DNA of 64,000 bases. Origin: Rubritalea profundi (GTDB lineage Bacteria; Verrucomicrobiota; Verrucomicrobiia; Verrucomicrobiales; Akkermansiaceae). Numbering within the stretch: the first letter of the stretch is position 1; the number at the start of each line of letters is the position of its first letter. The translations under genes and the position numbers were made by a program. This document shows, in pieces, positions 18,270-28,080 of the stretch. The stretch covers positions 771,931 to 835,930 of the forward strand of contig NZ_MQWA01000001.1 in the NCBI RefSeq assembly GCF_002954445.1, written 5' to 3'. The notes beneath the pieces were generated by a model. The model saw only the letters and a list, made by a program, of their open reading frames with translations, did not search any database and had not been told where the DNA came from.

Positions 18270-19799
18270 TCACCCGAGTAACCTCTTCAGCGTCTCGTCA
18301 CTGACTGGACGGACGTCGCGAATATCTCCACCGACCATGTCGTTGAGAAGGGCTTTGCAGGAATCCTTGGCTGTTTCGTTTTCGAAGTCCATACCCACAA
18401 GTGCTCGGCCGACGCGTTCACCGGAGTATTCGTAATTGAAATAACATAGGCTGGTGAATTCACTGACCTTCGCCATGAATTGCTGGAAAGCTCCAGCGCG
18501 CTCAGGAAATTCTATATTGACGAATAGCGGGCAAGTAAAGAGCTCTGGTTCGTAGTTGATAATACGGTAGCCGACGATTTCCTCGGTAGAAACATCCGCA
18601 GCGGTGACACCTCTCTGCTTGAGTAAGAGATCCACTTTGGCATAGTCCCCGACTGATCCGATCATGCCGAGCACTGGAAATTGGACCTCGGAACCAACAC
18701 GACCGTACTGAAGATCGACGATGCTGATTTCCTCCGGTAAATCTTTGAGAAAACCTAGCAACGAACCATTGCCTTCTGGAATTGGCACACGCAGGAATCG
18801 GCGCTGCCTAGAGCCAATACCTGCACGACGAGAAATGGTCGCCAATTGAGCGAAATCCATGTTTGCTCCGCAGATGATACTGAGCACTTTCTCACTAGGT
18901 TTGATCTTGCCCGCGGCGTAATCTTTAGCAATTGCCGCTAAGCCCATTGCTCCACTCGGCTCAGGGATAGCACGTACGGTTTCCCATAGACGGCGAACCC
19001 CGTGGCAGACCTCGTCGTTGGTTACTGTGACGATTTCTTCGAGGAGTTCATTACAGATTTTAAAAGTATTGGTTCCAGCTTTCCTGACAGCCGTGCCATC
19101 ACAGAAAACATCAAGGTATTCGAGCTCGACCGGATGACCTGCCGCAATTGCAGCTTTCATTGATGCCTGACCTTCACCTTCGACACCGATCACCTTGCAC
19201 TCTGGCCAGTATTTTTTAAGCCAGCAGCTCATCGCAGCCGCAAGTCCACCACCGCCGATAGCGATGTAAACTCGATCAAATGGGCCGTCTCCGCTCATCA
19301 CTATTTCATCAGCCACGGTACCTTGGCCACCCATGGTCACAACATCGTCGTATGGATGCACATACTCGGCACCAGCCTCGTCACAGTACTTGCGTGCGGC
19401 GATGCCGGCATCATCATAAGAATCCCCCACTAGACGGATCTCAACATTCTCGCCACCGTGACGCTTCACTTCGCTCTGTTTCACCTCAGGAGTGGAAATA
19501 GGCATGTAGACGATCGCCTGACAATCGAGCTTCCTAGCGGCCAGAGCAACGCCTTGCGCGTGATTCCCAGCAGAAGCTGCTACGATCCCTTTAGCGCGCT
19601 GATCTGGACTCAATGCAGCCATCGCATTGTATGACCCACGCCACTTGTAGGCTTTGATTGGACCAAGATCTTCTCGTTTAACCCAGACTTCGCAGTCGTA
19701 TTCGGGAATTTCAAGCTTCTGCAATGGTGTAGGGTCACCGGCAGCGTAGACGCGTTGACGCGCCATCAGTATCTCTTGAAATAATTGTTCTTGGTCCAT
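18270..19799 (-). CDS. ilvA: Threonine ammonia-lyase, biosynthetic
   Basis: This PLP enzyme converts threonine to 2-oxobutanoate, the first step toward isoleucine. Start 19799 (MDQEQLFQEIL) is chosen because the upstream 21 codons look unlike the family; the longer frame opens at 19862. KAYKWRGSYNAM holds the PLP lysine (residue 52 from this start). GGGGLAAA is the phosphate-binding loop. Two ACT-like regulatory domains fill the C-terminus (RRFLRVPIPEGNGSL and LFVNIEFPERAGAF), as in the isoleucine-inhibited biosynthetic form. It is monocistronic and convergent with the preceding hypothetical gene. Confidence 0.93.
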   Translation of the reverse strand: MDQEQLFQEILMARQRVYAAGDPTPLQKLEIPEYDCEVWVKREDLGPIKAYKWRGSYNAMAALSPDQRAKGIVAASAGNHAQGVALAARKLDCQAIVYMPISTPEVKQSEVKRHGGENVEIRLVGDSYDDAGIAARKYCDEAGAEYVHPYDDVVTMGGQGTVADEIVMSGDGPFDRVYIAIGGGGLAAAMSCWLKKYWPECKVIGVEGEGQASMKAAIAAGHPVELEYLDVFCDGTAVRKAGTNTFKICNELLEEIVTVTNDEVCHGVRRLWETVRAIPEPSGAMGLAAIAKDYAAGKIKPSEKVLSIICGANMDFAQLATISRRAGIGSRQRRFLRVPIPEGNGSLLGFLKDLPEEISIVDLQYGRVGSEVQFPVLGMIGSVGDYAKVDLLLKQRGVTAADVSTEEIVGYRIINYEPELFTCPLFVNIEFPERAGAFQQFMAKVSEFTSLCYFNYEYSGERVGRALVGMDFENETAKDSCKALLNDMVGGDIRDVRPVSDETLKRLLG

Positions 19800-20190
19800 A
19801 ATCGTTGGCTTGGAAATAGTCACACGCCCCAGCCGTGGGTCAAGATTCAATATTGACTGCATCGACGAATTCCCTCCATTTTCTGTAATTCTATCTAGCC
19901 CCCCTCCACCTTACCTAACAAAAACCCATTCATTATCTGGATAGGGAATAACCACTATCTCTGCTAGATGTTCAATAGAATGCGGCACGGCTCAAATGCA
20001 TGGGCGGGTTTGTCGTGCCCTCCTAGGTTACTACTGGCGCAAGGTGGCTCTATAGCACGTCTAAATAGTAATGAGATATATCACACTTTTTGGATTTATC
20101 TCTTGATGTGACGAATTTTTTTGAGAGAGTGGTATGATTGCTGCTTAAATAGTTTTAGGTTGCAATCCAACGCCATCGACACTCCATTTT
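19800..20190. other. Divergent intergenic region between ilvA and the glucosylglycerate operon
   Basis: It must hold both promoters. A hairpin with GGCACG/CGTGCC arms lies at about 19984-20023, and a smaller one, GATAG/CTATC around GGAATAACCA, lies nearer ilvA. Either could sit in the ilvA leader RNA. I found no leader peptide rich in branched-chain codons, so attenuation is not supported. Confidence 0.4.
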
Positions 20191-21018
20191 ATGACTTCCA
20201 TTGCTAACGAAAAATTGCTCGTGATCACTGATCTAGACGCATCATTACTGGATGAAGACTATGGATATGACGGCGCAAAGGAGGCTCTAGCAGCATTAAA
20301 GGAAAAAGGGTTTCCGCTCATTCTAAATTCTAGCAAAACTTACGCAGAGTTAAGGCAATTGGCCGAAAAAATAGGGCAATGTGATGCCGTGGTGGCTGAA
20401 AATGGTGGCTTAGTCGCAATACATCAACTCTCATCTATTGCTCCAGTGAGCGAGGCTGATGCGAATGGCTTTATTCTTCAACCCGCTGGGATGGCTAGGC
20501 GGGAGATTCTCGAAGTGGCTCATGCATTGAGAGAGTCTCATTCTTATTCTTTTGAAGGGTTTTCCGACTGGTCAGTGCAACAGGTGATCGATCATACTGG
20601 ACTCAGTGTTAGCGCTGCGGCGTTAGCTATGGAACGTGAGACTACTGAACCTATCATTTGGAATGGTACCGAGCTTGAGTGGAATTCTTTTTATACGAGT
20701 TTACAGGAGGCCGGGATAAAGGCTCTGCGAGGTGGGCGTTTTATTCATCTGATGGGGCAAGTAGATAAAGCACTCGGGATGCAGCAACTAATAGACCGCT
20801 ACAAACAGGCCGAACCTCACACTCTATGGAAAGTGGTGGCTATTGGAGATAGCGCCAATGATAAGGCGATGATTGAAGCCGCTGACTATGGCGTAGTCAT
20901 TCCGCATACTGATGGCCCACGAGTCCATCCAGAACAAGAGACTCTCATTATAGCATCGAAAACTGGCTCAAAGGGTTGGGGCGAAGCTGTTTCTAATATT
21001 CTAAAAAACTACAAATAA
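20191..21018 (+). CDS. HAD-IIB phosphatase, glucosyl/mannosyl-3-phosphoglycerate phosphatase type
   Basis: The 275-residue enzyme has HAD motif I as VITDLDASLLD and motif IV as GDSANDKAM, and its length matches the mannosyl-3-phosphoglycerate phosphatase group. Members strip phosphate from mannosyl- or glucosyl-3-phosphoglycerate to give the compatible solute. It lies 4 bp upstream of the synthase-phosphorylase fusion, so glucosyl-3-phosphoglycerate is the probable substrate. The enzyme is cytoplasmic, as no signal sequence is present. An active-site Lys is expected within the cap-core junction, but I cannot place it with certainty. Confidence 0.88.
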   Translation: MTSIANEKLLVITDLDASLLDEDYGYDGAKEALAALKEKGFPLILNSSKTYAELRQLAEKIGQCDAVVAENGGLVAIHQLSSIAPVSEADANGFILQPAGMARREILEVAHALRESHSYSFEGFSDWSVQQVIDHTGLSVSAAALAMERETTEPIIWNGTELEWNSFYTSLQEAGIKALRGGRFIHLMGQVDKALGMQQLIDRYKQAEPHTLWKVVAIGDSANDKAMIEAADYGVVIPHTDGPRVHPEQETLIIASKTGSKGWGEAVSNILKNYK

Positions 21019-21022
21019 AACT

Positions 21023-24004
21023 ATGGGCGACTTTCACCAACACGGCATTATTACGACATTGCACCAGCTAAATAACCGACCCCTTGATGAGTTAGAACAT
21101 GAACTTGTTCAATTTTCTAAGAAGAGACCGATGGCGCTTATACTGCCCTCGCTTTTCTCCGAACTCGAAGGTCCCGCGCTTTCGAAAATAATCGATGAAA
21201 TTGCACTCGTCCCTTATCTCGACCAGGTCATCATTGGTTTAGATCAAGCGAATGAAGAGCAGTATCGCTATGCTTTAGAGTTCTTCAGCCGTCTTCCTCA
21301 GCAGCCCAAAGTTTTATGGAATGATGGGCCTAGACTCAGAAAAATTGATGCGCAATTGCAGGAAAAAGGACTCGCGCCGAAGGAGGCTGGTAAGGGCCGC
21401 AATGTTTGGTACATGTTTGGCTATGTATTGGCTTCCAATAAAGCGGAGGCAGTGGCTATCCATGACTGTGATATAACGACCTACTCGCGTGATATGCTAG
21501 CACGCTTGATTTACCCTGTAGCCAACCCGTCTTTTGGTTATAAATTCTGTAAAGGGTACTATGCCCGTGTTGCAAACAATGCGATGAACGGCCGAGTGAC
21601 CCGTTTGTTAGTTACACCGTTGATACGCGCCTTGAAGAAGGTGTGTGGAGCGAATGATTATTTAAATTATCTCGATAGTTTCCGTTACCCACTCGCCGGA
21701 GAATTTTCACTCACTCGCGACGTGATCGAAAGCATCCGCATCCCTTCAGATTGGGGACTTGAAATGGGCACCCTTTCGGAGATGCAGCGCAACTATGCTA
21801 CGAACCAAATCTGTCAGGTTGATATTGCCGATATCTATGACCACAAGCATCAGGAATTATCTCTCAAAGACAAAAATCGCGGTCTTTCCAAGATGAGCTC
21901 GGATATTGCCAAATCGCTCTATCGCAAGATGGCCACTCAAGGTGAGGTATTCTCGAGCGAACGTATTCGTACGATCAAAGCGACCTACTACCGTATCGCT
22001 CTCGACCTTGTAGATAGCTACCACAATGACGCCGTGATGAATGGTTTGAAGTATGATCGCCATACTGAAGGGCTGGCGGTGGAGGCGTTTGCAGATAATG
22101 TGATGCAGGCTGGTAATGATTTTCTTGATCCTGATAGATCGATGGATACCCCGTTCATGCCGAGTTGGAATCGAGTTGAGTCGGCTCTCCCAGACATCAT
22201 GGATCAGCTGTTAGATGCTGTAGATGAGGATATGCAGGAGTTTGGTGGTGTTAGCTACGATCAAGCTAATCATCCAAAGGTTCAGCAGGTCCAACACCGA
22301 GTAGAACAGCACGTGCAACAAATCTACGGGGCTGAGAAATCGGCTGAAATTTCAGCTGACATAATGCGCGATGGAGGACTCACCGATGCCGCGATCGACA
22401 CTCACACCTTGGTAAATAAATGGGACGAAGGAGACGTGTATACGATCACCTATGCTGACTCTATCAAGAAAAATGGGGAACTGCCTCTTAAGACACTGCA
22501 CAGAATACTGCGTCAGCATCTCCGCGGAGTAACCAATGGAATACACATTTTACCATTTTGTCCGTACACTTCTGACTATGGATTCTCCGTAGTAGATTAT
22601 CATGCTGTGAAGCCTGAGTTCGGAAGCTGGAAGGATATTCAGGCGATCAGTGAGGATTTCAAATTGATGGCCGACCTTGTGATTAATCATTGTTCGAGCG
22701 AATCCGAGTGGTTTAAGAACTTTAAAGAAGGAAAAGACCCTGGCTCAGATTACTTTGTCTTAGGTGAGGACTATGAGGATGTCTCCAAAGTCGTACGCCC
22801 AAGGCCACATCCGCTCTTCACAAACGTCCAGACAGTCGATGGCGAAAAGGAGGTATGGTGTACCTTCAGTGCAGACCAAGTTGACCTGAATTTCCGCAAC
22901 CCTAAGGTATTGTTAGAATTTATTCGTGTTATTCGAACCTATCTAGCCCAGGGGGTGACGGTATTCCGACTCGATGCGATTGCCTTTCTCTGGAAAGAGT
23001 CGGGCACCACATGTGTCCACTTAGACCAGACCCATGAGATCATCAAGCTACTACGTCTCTTCATCGAAACACTGGAGCCAGAAGCTATTGTAATCACCGA
23101 GACCAATGTGCCTAACAAAGAGAACCTTTCATATTTTGGGAATGATAATGAGGCGCACATGATCTATAACTTTTCGCTTCCTCCGCTCCTGCTCAATACG
23201 ATGCTGAGCGGTGATTGTAGGCACTTGAAGGCTTGGATGATGTCAATGCCCCCAGCGCGTCGTGGCAGAGCTTATTTTAACTTTATTGCTTCCCATGATG
23301 GAATTGGTTTGCGACCAGCTGAAGGGCTGCTGAGTGAACAAGAATTGAAGGACCTGACAGACACACTTTGTTCCTTTGGTGGAGAGATTTCGATGCGTAA
23401 GATGCCGGATGGTCAGCTGCAACCGTATGAGGCAAATATTTCTCTCTTCAGCTCAATGGCTGGCAAGATAGGAGGAGCCAAGGATGCGTACCACCTTCAA
23501 CGCTTCATATGTGCACACTCCATCATGTTAGCGTTGGAGGGGGTTCCTGCATTTTACATTCATAGTCTGCTAGGTACTGAAAATGATTTACAAGGTGTTG
23601 CTGATACGGGCGAGCTCAGAGCTATCAATCGTCATAATTGGGATGCTGATATGCTTGAAGAAAAAATAGCAGATCCAGGCCTCCATCACGGTGAGGTGTT
23701 TGAATCATTGAAGCGGATGATTCGAGTCCGTCGGCAGCAGCCCGCATTCCACCCGAATGCGACTCAATACACCCTCCATTTTGGAAATGAGGTATTCGCA
23801 TTCTGGCGTGAGAGTCTCAATCGGGAGCAATCTATTTTCGCGCTACATAACATCTCAGACAAGAAGCAAGAAATACCTCTTGTGGAGTTGAACTTGATAG
23901 CGACTGAGAACTGGCGTGACTTGTTAAGTGGTGAAAAAATCACTCCTTGTAAACAGAGCATTGTGCTCGAACCTTATCAGAGCACTTGGATCACCAATAG
24001 GTAG
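21023..24004 (+). CDS. Fusion of glucosyl-3-phosphoglycerate synthase (GT81) and GH13_18 sugar phosphorylase (probable glucosylglycerate phosphorylase)
   Basis: The 993-residue protein joins two complete enzymes. Residues 1 to about 405 match glucosyl-3-phosphoglycerate synthase: LPSLFSELEGPAL, the DxD motif HDCDI (D148, D150), FCKGYYARV and YPLAGEFSL. From about 440 to 993 it is a GH13 (beta/alpha)8 barrel of the sucrose phosphorylase subfamily: nucleophile D651 in FRLDAIAF, acid/base E693 in VITETNV, third acid D759 in ASHDGIG. That subfamily includes glucosylglycerate phosphorylase, and the fusion makes this the favoured reaction over sucrose phosphorolysis. The linker is helical (QVQHRVEQHVQQIYG). 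No stop or frameshift separates the halves, and the gene forms an operon with the upstream phosphatase. Confidence 0.88.
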   Translation: MGDFHQHGIITTLHQLNNRPLDELEHELVQFSKKRPMALILPSLFSELEGPALSKIIDEIALVPYLDQVIIGLDQANEEQYRYALEFFSRLPQQPKVLWNDGPRLRKIDAQLQEKGLAPKEAGKGRNVWYMFGYVLASNKAEAVAIHDCDITTYSRDMLARLIYPVANPSFGYKFCKGYYARVANNAMNGRVTRLLVTPLIRALKKVCGANDYLNYLDSFRYPLAGEFSLTRDVIESIRIPSDWGLEMGTLSEMQRNYATNQICQVDIADIYDHKHQELSLKDKNRGLSKMSSDIAKSLYRKMATQGEVFSSERIRTIKATYYRIALDLVDSYHNDAVMNGLKYDRHTEGLAVEAFADNVMQAGNDFLDPDRSMDTPFMPSWNRVESALPDIMDQLLDAVDEDMQEFGGVSYDQANHPKVQQVQHRVEQHVQQIYGAEKSAEISADIMRDGGLTDAAIDTHTLVNKWDEGDVYTITYADSIKKNGELPLKTLHRILRQHLRGVTNGIHILPFCPYTSDYGFSVVDYHAVKPEFGSWKDIQAISEDFKLMADLVINHCSSESEWFKNFKEGKDPGSDYFVLGEDYEDVSKVVRPRPHPLFTNVQTVDGEKEVWCTFSADQVDLNFRNPKVLLEFIRVIRTYLAQGVTVFRLDAIAFLWKESGTTCVHLDQTHEIIKLLRLFIETLEPEAIVITETNVPNKENLSYFGNDNEAHMIYNFSLPPLLLNTMLSGDCRHLKAWMMSMPPARRGRAYFNFIASHDGIGLRPAEGLLSEQELKDLTDTLCSFGGEISMRKMPDGQLQPYEANISLFSSMAGKIGGAKDAYHLQRFICAHSIMLALEGVPAFYIHSLLGTENDLQGVADTGELRAINRHNWDADMLEEKIADPGLHHGEVFESLKRMIRVRRQQPAFHPNATQYTLHFGNEVFAFWRESLNREQSIFALHNISDKKQEIPLVELNLIATENWRDLLSGEKITPCKQSIVLEPYQSTWITNR

Positions 24005-24182
24005 TTTACCCTTTGAGCGGGCAGAGAGTGTGTCGGTTACTCGCTCTCCGCCAGCTCTGCGCTTACGGGGCGGGTGATAGATTTTCGGCAAATCGCCATC
24101 AGCACTATCATCGGCCAGTCAAACGAGCTCGCGACAGGAAAGAACCTTGCAATCAAGGATTCACTATGTTCATTATAGGCCT

Positions 24183-24197
24183 ATTGTTTAGAACAAT
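24183..24197. promoter_or_regulatory. Inverted repeat upstream of the peroxiredoxin gene
   Basis: ATTGTT-TAG-AACAAT is a perfect 6-bp dyad ending 37 bp before ATG 24235. It could be an operator for a redox or metal regulator. It is not a LexA box. Confidence 0.3.
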
Positions 24198-24234
24198 CCT
24201 AAACTACATATTCTAAGATCCAACTAATACTAAA

Positions 24235-24726
24235 ATGAGCATTAAAGTCGGCGATAAAGCCCCAGATTTCACACTTGTAACTCTCGGCGCAAATGGCCCA
24301 GAGACACTCACACTCTCCAAGGTCATCGGTGAGACTAACCTCCTCCTCCTCTTCGTTCCAATGGCCTTCACAGGTGGCTGCACTGCGGAGTTCTGTGATA
24401 TTTCTAAAAACATCAGCAGCTACAATGCGCTCGACGCGAAGGTTCTAGGAATTTCTGGCGACAACCCATTCGCCCAAGCGGCATGGGCAGAGAAAGAAGG
24501 CATCACCCTCACTCTCCTTTCTGACTACGAACACAAAGCCACTGAAGCATACGGCATTGCCTATGAGTCCTTCCTTCCTGAGAAAAATCTCATCATGGGT
24601 GGAGTGCCTAAGCGCTCAGCATTCGTTGTAGATAAAGCTGGTGTAGTGCAGTACGCAGAAGTTCTCGAAGTCCCTAGCGATATGCCTAACTTCGATGCTA
24701 TCCAAGAGTGCCTCAAAGCCCTCTAA
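24235..24726 (+). CDS. Peroxiredoxin (AhpC/TSA family, AhpE-like)
   Basis: This 163-residue thiol peroxidase has the peroxidatic site PMAFTGGCTAEFC, with Cys49 as the attacking residue and Cys54 as a possible resolving partner. The N-terminus VGDKAPDFTL and the one-domain length fit the AhpE-like group, which reduces hydrogen peroxide and alkyl hydroperoxides at the cost of a thiol donor. It is cytoplasmic. It stands alone with its own terminator and an upstream inverted repeat. Confidence 0.9.
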   Translation: MSIKVGDKAPDFTLVTLGANGPETLTLSKVIGETNLLLLFVPMAFTGGCTAEFCDISKNISSYNALDAKVLGISGDNPFAQAAWAEKEGITLTLLSDYEHKATEAYGIAYESFLPEKNLIMGGVPKRSAFVVDKAGVVQYAEVLEVPSDMPNFDAIQECLKAL

Positions 24727-24754
24727 CACCACACTCATCTAAGCATAACAGCCA

Positions 24755-24787
24755 GAGCCCGTGGAACATCTGTCCCCGGGCTTTTTC
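24755..24787 (+). terminator. Rho-independent terminator of the peroxiredoxin gene
   Basis: AGCCCG (24756-24761) pairs with CGGGCT (24777-24782), followed by TTTTTC. Confidence 0.8.
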
Positions 24788-24833
24788 GTGTCCAGTCTCG
24801 ACACAGCGTTGAACTCTCGCTAGAGAAGTCCTC

Positions 24834-26165
24834 ATGCACCAGTATCGTTCTCTTTTCATCCTGCTCATTGCTCTCCTCACTTCTTGCGGCAGCAATGGGC
24901 CATTAGTGTTCGATCTCATGCCAGCCCCTGCCGCCTTCACCGATACGGGCTTAAAGTTGCCTAACGAAATTGATCGCGTAGGAGACACCCTCATTGACCA
25001 AATTTTCTACGCTACGGATCGCCGACCTGCGACCGCGAAGGATAAGCAACAATTCTATTCTAGCAAAAGGGGAAATGCCATACGCCTCGGCCGAGCACAG
25101 GTCGAGACCGGCCGTGACGACCTCACCTGGCAAGATGCTAGGAAGATCTCTTTACTCAAAACTCGTACTGAAAAATTCCCTATCAAGGTCAAAGGCATCA
25201 ACGAATACGGCCTGCTAGATGAATCCGTTCATCGTTATTCAAAAGTCACAGACGCGGATCGCAAAAGTGCTAAATCAGCCACCAAGCGATACATCAAAGA
25301 GATCAACCAACAGCTCGCTAAATCTAAAAATAAAACCGTCAACATCTTCGTCCACGGATATAAAGTCACCTTCGAAAACCCCATTCTAACCACCGCTGAG
25401 ATGTGGCACTTCCTTGCCTATGATGGTGTGTTTATCGCCTATTCGTGGCCGTCGACACCAAAAACCTTAGCCTACGTTTCAGACACAGAAACAGCTCTGG
25501 TCTCATCACGTCACCTTCGCGACCTCATTCTCTTTCTATCCAAACGCACCAATGTCGATAAAATCAATATCATTGGCTACAGCGCTGGCAGTCGAGTTGT
25601 CACACGGGCAATGGGAGACCTCGCCATCCTCCAGCATAGTAAAACTAAAGCTGAGAATAAGCGCCGACTCAAGCTGGGCACCGTCGCCATCATTGCTGGC
25701 GATGTGGACCGCAAGCTCGTAGGTGGATACCTGCTCGATGGAGCGGATAAGCTCATGGACCAGTTTCTCGTCTACCAAAGTGACTCAGACAAAGCTCTCA
25801 GCTTTTCAAGGTTTCTCACGAACAGAGAACGCTTAGGCCAGTCCTTTGATATTGATAGTCTTGACCAGCAAGGCCTGCGCTACCTCAAAGATAACCCGCA
25901 AGTTGTTATCATCGATGTCAGCAATGCAGAAGCTGCTAGAGCCGGCAACGGCCACGGATATTTGCGAAAAAGCCCCTGGGTAACCAGCGACTTACTAATG
26001 GCATTGGCGTACGGCCCCAGGCCTCAAGACAGAGGCCTAGTTCAAAAGCAACCGGGCATCCCAATATGGACATTCCCAAAAAATTATACCGAAGGACTCG
26101 GAAAAGCGCTCCGACGTTACAATCCGGAGTTATTCGATAAGACTAAGCGCCGCGATCATATTTAG
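24834..26165 (+). CDS. DUF900-type alpha/beta-hydrolase lipoprotein
   Basis: A lipoprotein signal opens the protein: MHQYRSLFILLIALLTSCG with lipobox LTSC. The 443-residue body contains the DUF900 hydrolase pattern: VNIFVHGYKVTF as the oxyanion-hole strand, YSWPS, and the nucleophile elbow IIGYSAGS with Ser250. It should be an esterase or lipase-like enzyme anchored in the outer or inner membrane facing the periplasm. Its substrate is unknown. The 3' end overlaps the convergent malQ gene by 23 bases, so both stops lie in each other's coding sequence. Confidence 0.82.
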   Translation: MHQYRSLFILLIALLTSCGSNGPLVFDLMPAPAAFTDTGLKLPNEIDRVGDTLIDQIFYATDRRPATAKDKQQFYSSKRGNAIRLGRAQVETGRDDLTWQDARKISLLKTRTEKFPIKVKGINEYGLLDESVHRYSKVTDADRKSAKSATKRYIKEINQQLAKSKNKTVNIFVHGYKVTFENPILTTAEMWHFLAYDGVFIAYSWPSTPKTLAYVSDTETALVSSRHLRDLILFLSKRTNVDKINIIGYSAGSRVVTRAMGDLAILQHSKTKAENKRRLKLGTVAIIAGDVDRKLVGGYLLDGADKLMDQFLVYQSDSDKALSFSRFLTNRERLGQSFDIDSLDQQGLRYLKDNPQVVIIDVSNAEAARAGNGHGYLRKSPWVTSDLLMALAYGPRPQDRGLVQKQPGIPIWTFPKNYTEGLGKALRRYNPELFDKTKRRDHI

Positions 26166-27837
26166 TAATCAGCCTTTGCAGCTTATCCATTTCTCTCTGC
26201 ACAGTCTTAGGGATGGAGCCAAACTCCCAACTGACTCGATAGGTCCAATTCTGATCCCCGACAGTACCAGGGAAATTGATTTGAACGGAGCTGTCGACTA
26301 ACTCATTGATCTGGATCGCAGCATAGCGCGAGCCAGCACTCAGGAGGGTCTCAAGAAATGCCTTCTTTAGTTTGTGGGAATACGCGGGGTATTCTTTCCC
26401 CCTTCGTTGAACCGGAAGTCCCGCAAATTGGCTAAGAGCTTTGAGCTTCAGCTCGGCGTCTCGTTTATCTGGACCCGACTGGGCATCATGCCGAGCCTCC
26501 TCCCAGAGTTTTTTCAATGGAGCCATGTCATGCGTACTATAGCAGGCAAACGAGCATTCTGGGTACTCTTCCACCGGTATCACTATACCTCTAGAATCTA
26601 GCTCCCAATGGCACACCTTAAACCCAGCAACCCCGAGCTCTAACAAATGTGGTCGCACATAATCTGGAACCGACCCGAGGTCCTCACCGATCACTTCGGC
26701 GCAACCCGCTGCATCAACAACAGCACGGATGTACTTGTCGCCATCCAGTAGATTCTGCGCCTTATGCACCATCGTGTCGTCTTCACGGGGGGAGAAGCTA
26801 GGGAGTCTCCCCTTAGTCAGCTTCGCAGCCTGCTCGGCACTCAGCGGGAGAAACTCAGGATTTCTACGCGGGTGCCACGGGAAACTATAAATCCGGTAAA
26901 ACCCAAGAATATGATCGATTCGAAATTGATGGAAAATCGAACTTAGCTCGCCAATCCGCCGCTTCCACCATCGGTAGTCACTCTTCTCAATCGCATCCCA
27001 TCGATAGACTGGCACCCCCCAGTTTTGCCCCCACTTCGTGGTGAATGCGTCTGCTTTAAATTCAGTTTCCGGCGGAGCCCCACCAAACAAATCCAAGTGG
27101 AACCACTCTGGCTCAAAAAACACATCAGCACTCGCATAACTCACTCCTATCGGTACATCCCCCATCAACTTCACTCCGAGTTTATCCGCATGATCCCGCA
27201 CACTTTCCCATTGAGAAAAGGCGTGCCATTGCTCCCACGCATAATAATCCTGGGCAGCTAATACCTCAGCGCGGTCCTTGCGCTTTTTACGTACCTCATA
27301 GCGTTTCGCTTTTCCAGCTGAGTTAAATGCCTCTGGCCAGAGCGACCAATCTTCTAGTCCGCCGGCTTCATCGATCAACCACCGGTACAGACAATAATGC
27401 CGAAGCCACGACTTGTGCTTTTTCTTAAAAGATCCAAAGCTCGCATTCTCTTTTGCATTTTGATTATTTTTAAATGCTTGGCGCAAAACTCGTAGTTTCA
27501 CCTGCCACACCGTCGAGTAATCGACAGTCGCCGCAATGCGCGCCACCCCGCAGCTGGCTCGAGCTTTATTCAACATAGCTGGCTCCACTCCCTTTATTTT
27601 TTCCAGGTCCAAATAAATAGGATCCAGCGCCACGGAACTAATTGCGCTATACGGGCTGCGATCAGCTCCAGTCACATTGATCGGCAAGAGTTGTAAAAAC
27701 CCAACTTGGTGCTGCGCAAACCAATCTAGGCATTGCTTCACGGCTGTCGTATCGCCAATCCCCAGATCTCCCTCACGCCGCATCGAGAATACTGGGAACA
27801 AAATTCCAGCCATGCGTTGCTTGTCCATTCCTGCCAT
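26143..27837 (-). CDS. malQ: 4-alpha-glucanotransferase (amylomaltase, GH77)
   Basis: The enzyme transfers alpha-1,4-glucan segments between maltodextrins. Catalytic motifs are FRIDHILGF (nucleophile Asp), VIGEDLGSVP (acid/base Glu) and CYSTHDMAPL (third Asp). The N-terminus AGILFPVFSMRREGDLGIGD with LQLLPIN is typical. I start at 27837 (MAGMDKQ), because the 35 codons upstream to 27942 do not resemble the family. The length of about 564 residues is slightly above the usual 500. It is probably monocistronic and overlaps the DUF900 gene tail to tail. Confidence 0.92.
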   Translation of the reverse strand: MAGMDKQRMAGILFPVFSMRREGDLGIGDTTAVKQCLDWFAQHQVGFLQLLPINVTGADRSPYSAISSVALDPIYLDLEKIKGVEPAMLNKARASCGVARIAATVDYSTVWQVKLRVLRQAFKNNQNAKENASFGSFKKKHKSWLRHYCLYRWLIDEAGGLEDWSLWPEAFNSAGKAKRYEVRKKRKDRAEVLAAQDYYAWEQWHAFSQWESVRDHADKLGVKLMGDVPIGVSYASADVFFEPEWFHLDLFGGAPPETEFKADAFTTKWGQNWGVPVYRWDAIEKSDYRWWKRRIGELSSIFHQFRIDHILGFYRIYSFPWHPRRNPEFLPLSAEQAAKLTKGRLPSFSPREDDTMVHKAQNLLDGDKYIRAVVDAAGCAEVIGEDLGSVPDYVRPHLLELGVAGFKVCHWELDSRGIVIPVEEYPECSFACYSTHDMAPLKKLWEEARHDAQSGPDKRDAELKLKALSQFAGLPVQRRGKEYPAYSHKLKKAFLETLLSAGSRYAAIQINELVDSSVQINFPGTVGDQNWTYRVSWEFGSIPKTVQREMDKLQRLITKYDRGA

Positions 27838-28080
27838 ATCCACCCTATGATAAAGCCTCTTCAATTTCGCTTGGCAATCGCAATCTGTAGAAAATAGCAG
27901 TTTAGTGGAGAAGTACCCTCCTCCATACGACAACGGACTCAATGGTCAATAGGGGTGAAAACACGTTCTCTCCCACCCTAATTTCAACCTTCTAGCACCC
28001 ATTCATTTTACACCTATATAGAGGCAAAACAAAAATTTACCTTTCCAAACTCCCTTTTGCGCCCTAATCCCAGTCTTAGG

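Follow-up and report, generated by a model that had tools for sequence, protein, structure and literature searches.

A synthesis-and-recycling operon for glucosylglycerate (GGA), a sugar that protects cells against salt, is described in Prochlorococcus, and in that report (PMC11631117) a dark-tolerant Prochlorococcus NATL2A shows depleted synthesis transcripts and enriched recycling transcripts relative to its parental strain. Synechococcus 7002 (A2021–A2023, with A2021 taken as the synthase), Prochlorococcus NATL2A, and Alteromonas have loci in which synthase, phosphatase, and phosphorylase lie side by side. The same module is found in a 64,000-nucleotide stretch of the Rubritalea profundi genome (contig NZ_MQWA01000001.1, positions 771,931 to 835,930), hereafter the window. 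The difference is that the synthase and the phosphorylase, which are separate proteins in the loci examined here and bear separate names or tags in the papers on the others, form one chain in the window. Many of the separate-gene loci examined here also carry a glycerate 3-kinase.

The fused frame and its predicted activities

The frame that follows the phosphatase gene runs for 993 codons on the plus strand and is open throughout, without stop or frameshift (Table 1). A sequence-only reading, made without database searches, had described it as an unbroken fusion with the complete catalytic motifs of both families, and so it proved: HDCDI, D651, E693, and D759 are all in place. We read the protein, with a probability of roughly three in four (0.77), as a bifunctional enzyme of GGA turnover. 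Its N-terminal half would transfer glucose from an activated donor to 3-phosphoglycerate; the phosphate would then be stripped off by the phosphatase, a protein of its own encoded just upstream, to yield GGA, and the C-terminal half would convert GGA and inorganic phosphate to glucose 1-phosphate and D-glycerate. The glycerate could then enter glycolysis by way of a glycerate kinase, encoded beside the operon in many relatives and elsewhere in the genome of R. profundi.

The phosphorylase half is considered first. GGA phosphorylases are recognized by two marks, according to the 2020 review PMC7178133: (T/S)ETN at the tip of strand 5, and a Glu in loop A replacing the Gln of most other clades. 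Both are applied alike in a 2023 paper (PMC10608839). In alignment, TETN 692–695 and PYEAN (E803) of the window stand opposite TETN and PYEMN of E. coli YcjM. YcjM, with the enzymes of Meiothermus silvanus and Spirochaeta thermophila, represents the GH13_18 GGA phosphorylases (EC 2.4.1.352), and its catalytic residues are likewise present in the window. HDCD, D651, TETN, D759, and E803 are invariant in all 44 distinct complete fused proteins, a set that includes the window, derives from 49 complete loci with identical copies collapsed, and leaves out the contig-cut L014 and L047 and the later L122–L124. Among 41 phosphorylases from split loci, that is, loci with separate synthase and phosphorylase genes, E693 and N695 are found in all 41 and T692 and T694 in 39 each. 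The catalytic Asp/Glu/Asp of GH13_18 is complete (D651, E693, D759), with D651 presumably the nucleophile and D759 the transition-state stabilizer.

The sucrose phosphorylase profile TIGR03852 spans residues 473–949 (hmmscan, E = 1e-64) with a score of 218.7 bits, under its curated cut-off of 334.4. Sucrose phosphorylase was rejected as the identity of this half on that score and on a loop A without N(L/V)D(I/L/V)YQ. Judged from its sequence marks, the half likely acts on GGA and not on sucrose, as had been supposed. The proposed comparison with characterized GH13_18 loops came out in the same sense, PYEAN resembling PYEMN of YcjM and the sucrose motif being absent. In the AlphaFold model of the whole protein, the second half aligns with glucosylglycerol phosphorylase 9j1u_A at Z 38.5 (rmsd, root-mean-square deviation, 2.6; 455 residues aligned). 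Structural re-alignment favors glucosylglycerol, sucrose 6-phosphate, and sucrose phosphorylases, with amylosucrase close at Z 37.4. When the 993-residue protein is searched against Pfam, the amylase domain alone passes the cut-off. Phosphorolysis of the phosphorylated intermediate was considered and set aside: R764 differed from YcjM, yet it is found in 6 of 8 unlinked phosphorylases.

A separate observation concerns N716 (23168–23170). Asn stands there in each of the 85 phosphorylases that are fused or adjacent to a synthase, and also in the 4 others that are linked to one; the 8 phosphorylases without a synthase in the examined stretch all have Gln or Asp. Of 12 positions with such a pattern, this is the sole one common to all 4 other synthase-linked phosphorylases. 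From the alignment, it is a possible mark separating solute-turnover from catabolic phosphorylases.

In the synthase half, the GpgS profile NF040724 spans residues 3–407 (hmmscan, E = 5e-111). HDCD is present in 44 of 44 distinct fused and 39 of 39 distinct split synthases, and the following Ile in 44 of 44 and 35 of 39, respectively. We take this acidic motif to bind metal at the nucleotide-sugar site. The AlphaFold model of this half alone has a predicted local distance difference test score (pLDDT) of 84.9 and a predicted template-modeling score (pTM) of 0.86, and it aligns with GpgS 5jqx_B at Z 25.9 (rmsd 2.8, 266 aligned). The predicted fold says that the half is a sugar-3-phosphoglycerate synthase.

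Table 1. Features of the predicted GGA module (positions of the window; residues of the 993-residue protein).
Feature	Position	Strand	Basis
HAD-IIB phosphatase, MpgP/GpgP family, 275 aa, presumed glucosyl-3-phosphoglycerate phosphatase	20191..21018	+	TIGR01486
Fused GpgS-like synthase / predicted glucosylglycerate phosphorylase, 993 aa	21023..24004	+	single open reading frame (ORF)
Residues 3–407, GT-A glucosyl-3-phosphoglycerate synthase-like domain	21029..22243	+	NF040724; GpgS/MpgS fold
HDCDI, residues 147–151, presumed metal/nucleotide-sugar motif	21461..21475	+	alignment
Residues 409–465, helical segment, the phosphorylase's own N-terminal part	22247..22417	+	model, junction lengths
Residues 466–993, GH13_18 domain, predicted glucosylglycerate phosphorylase	22418..24001	+	fold, TETN, loop-A Glu
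D651, presumed catalytic nucleophile	22973..22975	+	44/44 fused, 41/41 split
TETN 692–695 including acid/base E693, glucosylglycerate phosphorylase signature	23096..23107	+	PMC7178133 signature
D759, presumed transition-state stabilizer	23297..23299	+	44/44 fused, 41/41 split
E803, loop-A Glu	23429..23431	+	PMC7178133 signature; 44/44 fused, 41/41 split

The surroundings of the operon are as follows. An opposite-strand gene lies upstream and is threonine ammonia-lyase-like. From the stop of the fused gene, 230 bases separate it from the next same-strand gene, which is peroxiredoxin-like and starts at 24235. Window annotations shortly downstream include a DUF900 alpha/beta hydrolase (24834–26165, plus strand) and a 4-alpha-glucanotransferase of GH77 (26143–27942, minus strand); nothing indicated that either is part of the operon, though no search aimed at this was made. 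A weak test for a plus-strand sigma-70-like site gave none between 19700 and 24300 of the window.

Distribution and origin of the fusion

The sequence-only reading had proposed a search for the same domain pair in other genomes. Named genomes were scanned with the synthase half, and the best 80 of 325 relatives, a sample that leans to close kin, were examined. The fusion is found in 41 of these 80 loci: 35 in Verrucomicrobiota, 3 in Kiritimatiellota, 1 in Lentisphaerota, and 1 in each of two metagenome-assembled genomes (MAGs) labeled Planctomycetota and Hydrogenedentota, the labels being those of the records. In a further 37 of the 80, every one from Pseudomonadota, the genes are separate and lie next to each other on the same strand; the remaining 2 loci end at a contig edge. 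Among 39 genomes near the window, 9 (R. profundi included) have the whole fusion as one ORF; in addition, the fused ORF of G003 is cut by the contig start, and the halves of G008 lie on two contigs. Because the same single ORF recurs in 41 of the 80 loci and in 9 of the 39 near genomes, the fusion is beyond chance. An assembly or frameshift artefact, which the sequence-only reading had named together with separate genes in relatives as what might undo the fusion, is refuted by the 41 loci, which include Rubritalea marina DSM 17716 and Lentisphaera marina IMCC 11369. The separate genes do exist, in the Pseudomonadota and in three near relatives (G012, G019, and G024) that have two adjacent genes instead of the fusion.

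In an even sample of the phylum, the whole fusion occurs in 14 of 387 genomes, R. profundi included, and G409 has the end piece alone. L006, from a genome of the same genus as the window, encodes exactly the protein found in Rubritalea marina DSM 17716 (L030). The fusion seems patchy even inside the genus. Two same-genus genomes, G002 (98% complete) and G004 (94%), have no match to the fusion. Six plasmid records match with at least 80% coverage, all from Pseudoalteromonas; the frames are separate in the four examined, and in one record (H6) the phosphorylase is unannotated and matched in two pieces.

Other arrangements of the module were seen. On rhodobacteral plasmids of Qingshengfaniella and Leisingera (L125:4845–8680 and L126:4839–8602), the phosphorylase faces a glycosyl transferase and a HAD phosphatase in convergent orientation, a third arrangement, with galU also present in one of the two. 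In L113 and L114, from the same phylum as the window, synthase and phosphatase are divergent from a more distant phosphorylase (42–43%).

How often the fusion arose was examined in trees. An initial, wider GpgS tree has 58 rows and needs 4 changes of the fused state, at least 2 of them forced by starred branches. Nine rows that were long-branched, or in which the synthase had no complete paired phosphorylase adjacent, were dropped afterwards, leaving 49. The tree of the concatenated halves divides 30 fused from 19 split rows across one branch (SH-aLRT, Shimodaira–Hasegawa-like approximate likelihood-ratio test, 83; not starred), and the phosphorylase-half tree with 6 outgroup rows needs 1 change (support 90, not starred). 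The synthase half alone needs 2 changes, and a single fused clade is not rejected (approximately unbiased test, p-AU 0.37). These trees make a single origin of the fusion likely, and the simplest reading is one such event with later spread, whether vertical or horizontal. A genome of the same family carries a 463-aa synthase (L115:3311–4699) with no phosphorylase within the 8 kb examined. In the tree this synthase has a long branch and groups with fused proteins, and the locus perhaps reflects a secondary loss of the phosphorylase.

The ratio of nonsynonymous to synonymous substitution rates (dN/dS) is 0.01–0.07 for the first half and 0.03–0.12 for the second, in 25 of the 35 pairs that have dS < 1.5. 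The window is not among these 25 pairs, and its nearest pair is saturated. The low values in both halves indicate that both are maintained in the compared pairs.

The junction bears on how the fusion came about. From V400 to the first conserved phosphorylase Trp there are 63–70 residues in the fused proteins (median 67). In split pairs the synthase tail has a median of 9 residues and the phosphorylase head a median of 56, the heads varying from 14 to 95 with ORF starts picked mechanically. The model has helices at 418–458, and its match to amylosucrase chains sets in near residue 409, where those chains begin. An extra linker or regulatory domain was rejected, as the junction is no longer than split tail plus head and the helices match the amylosucrase start. 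Residues 409–465 are part of the phosphorylase, and the fusion added nothing visible. A start of its own for the second half, considered for ATG alone, was likewise rejected: Met is absent from the head region in 31 of 44 fused proteins, and the weak test above gave no sigma-70-like site.

We suggest that the fusion arose when the two genes at the end of an operon were joined, genes that are still separate in the Pseudomonadota. This could have been a neutral event, the loss of a stop codon between packed genes, after which the halves would work independently, gaining co-expression at most and neither switch nor coupling. We hold this to be an even bet, and at least as likely as any functional explanation. 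The genes of the split relatives share a strand at 37 of 37 loci, lie 0–6 nt apart at 25 of 37, and overlap at 8 by mechanical ORF starts; the junction equals split tail plus head. Moreover, the fused domains would be steps 1 and 3, with the phosphatase step between them and outside the protein, so that neither direct hand-over nor channeling between the fused sites is expected, a point beyond the sequence-only reading. Against neutrality, the fusion has been kept in three phyla (five by label, two of these being MAGs) with no clear reversal save possibly L115. Even the gain of co-expression would be unneeded, as the genes were already in one operon.

Partner enzymes and the direction of turnover

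The ORF 4 bp upstream of the fused ATG had been called a HAD phosphatase of the MpgP/GpgP type, and this call holds: 20191–21015 scores 182.4 bits with TIGR01486, over the cut-off of 164.75. Of the 41 fused loci, 40 have a related phosphatase, which lies 4–71 nt upstream in the 37 that could be measured. Kinase aside, no other neighbor family occurs in more than 7 of 42 loci (the 41 and the window), in a clustering that lumps the kinase with the phosphatase.

About 300 extra residues precede the phosphatase at its N terminus in Pontiellaceae, Lentisphaera marina, Pseudoalteromonas, and Methylophaga. The top structure matches of this extra part in L068 are the D-glycerate 3-kinases 6ckg (E = 2e-22) and 7xpc, and the remaining kinase domains were recognized by similarity among four kinase domains. 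The kinase fused ahead of an MpgP/GpgP-type phosphatase was seen in L060–L062, L068, L025–L028, and L107. Whether upstream of the phosphatase or fused to it, a D-glycerate 3-kinase accompanies 13 of the 41 fused loci and 29 of the 37 split ones. It is separate and directly upstream at 9 and 28 of these loci and fused to the phosphatase at 4 and 1, respectively. This addition of a kinase in many relatives also goes beyond the sequence-only reading. In Pontiellaceae and Lentisphaera all four predicted activities reside in two adjacent fusion proteins. The module looks like a unit of GGA synthesis, breakdown, and salvage.

Elsewhere in its genome, R. profundi has a PF02595 glycerate kinase. Searches of that genome for a D-glycerate 3-kinase gave no match in a run without a positive control, and for a DUF4147 glycerate kinase no match where the controls matched. 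The search for BCCT likewise found no match with controls matching, and that for ectoine synthase found none in genome or controls. The genome also has a 751-codon frame with a trehalose-phosphate-synthase domain (C1:3289523–3290881), so that GGA need not be the sole solute.

Several findings weigh against reading the 993-residue protein as an enzyme of GGA turnover. The synthase half scores 371.3 bits over the full NF040724 profile, where the curated equivalog cut-off is 700. Because this cut-off is missed, the half is filed as GpgS-like and not as an equivalog, and the preference for glucose over mannose as the donor comes from context, namely the best-matching curated family and the enzyme to which the half is joined. 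MpgS of R. xylanophilus (3f1y_C) ties with GpgS in the structural comparison (Z 25.5 vs. 25.9), and MpgS 3f1y is the top PDB sequence match of this half (E = 5e-6). The Foldseek E-value order for the whole model puts amylosucrases on top, and that AlphaFold model (mean pLDDT 83.8, pTM 0.66) does not fix the relative placement of the two halves. The fused locus L064 has no phosphatase in the examined stretch. No glycerate 3-kinase adjoins 28 of the 41 fused loci, of which 4 have less than 900 nt of examined upstream sequence, and none was found between 14001 and 30000 of the window.

These findings bear in part on the identity of the solute. That it is a relative of GGA, e.g., mannosylglycerate or glucosylglycerol, is improbable in our view. 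The GT-A fold matches MpgS as well as GpgS, and the synthase half reaches no equivalog cut-off; nevertheless, GpgS is its top curated family, the phosphorylase half has the GGA-specific TETN and loop-A Glu and not the VGAIYQ of glucosylglycerol phosphorylases, and the glycerate 3-kinase context speaks for GGA.

The fusion raises the question of how the cell sets the direction of GGA making versus breaking. Synthase and phosphorylase are made 1:1 in one chain, so direction must come from substrates or from protein-level regulation; opposite regulation of transcripts, as in Prochlorococcus, is not possible with a single polypeptide. Net direction would follow from the levels of nucleotide-glucose and 3-phosphoglycerate versus phosphate, and possibly also from effects of salt or ligands on either half, not from separate transcription. 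Substrate levels may be enough in themselves, control may act on the protein, or the cell may put up with some turnover.

We consider it unlikely that the phosphorylase half runs mainly toward synthesis, both halves making GGA from different precursors. The reaction is reversible, with Michaelis constants (KM) for D-glycerate of 1–5 mM in characterized enzymes (PMC11009771). However, a glycerate 3-kinase beside many copies suits glycerate as a product, not as a substrate. Cells also have high phosphate and low glucose 1-phosphate, and breakdown is favored.

Salt or a metabolite might activate one half and restrain the other, one protein setting the GGA pool. This proposal is a tentative one and, on balance, doubtful; the osmotic switch or futile-cycle control suggested in the sequence-only reading finds no support in the present analysis. 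Its logic is comparable to that of PFK-2/FBPase-2, a bifunctional enzyme. Opposite transcript changes being impossible, protein-level control would be needed against a costly cycle. Marine sources are suggested by the titles of some records (Rubritalea marina, Lentisphaera marina, a North Sea MAG), and the host bacterium is probably marine. However, no added domain is visible at the junction, and the interdomain arrangement is not fixed by the model (pTM 0.66). With such control, the phosphatase, together with the kinase–phosphatase fusion of Pontiellaceae and Lentisphaera, could conceivably complete a two-protein turnover cycle, a suggestion we hold just as loosely.

Comparison with known systems

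The separate-gene operon and the synthase–phosphatase fusion are already described. No synthase–phosphorylase fusion is reported in the literature searched, which did not cover the founding paper, Franceus 2017, where a mention is possible. With GpgS of the NF040724 or mycobacterial type, the window protein shares the GT-A fold and a full-length profile match; it differs in its fusion to a phosphorylase and in falling under the NCBIfam equivalog cut-off. Compared with known GGA phosphorylases, that of the window sits behind a glycosyltransferase. YcjM and a relative from Meiothermus taiwanensis adjoin ABC transporter genes, whereas no transporter is among the neighbors annotated at 18270–27942 of the window.

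With making and breaking locked in one protein, the fusion offers a direct test of protein-level control of turnover, and the protein may serve as a ready-made bifunctional catalyst. If the halves are coupled, it would join the classic bifunctional enzymes that synthesize and degrade the same compound, here with a compatible solute as that compound. A bifunctional MpgS/MpgP (NF011072) was rejected as its identity: the phosphatase is a separate ORF, and the partner of the synthase is a GH13_18 domain. Like the window protein, that enzyme and Marinobacter GgpPS are fusions of compatible-solute enzymes. They join consecutive synthetic steps, a synthase with a phosphatase, whereas the window protein joins a synthase with a predicted degrading enzyme.

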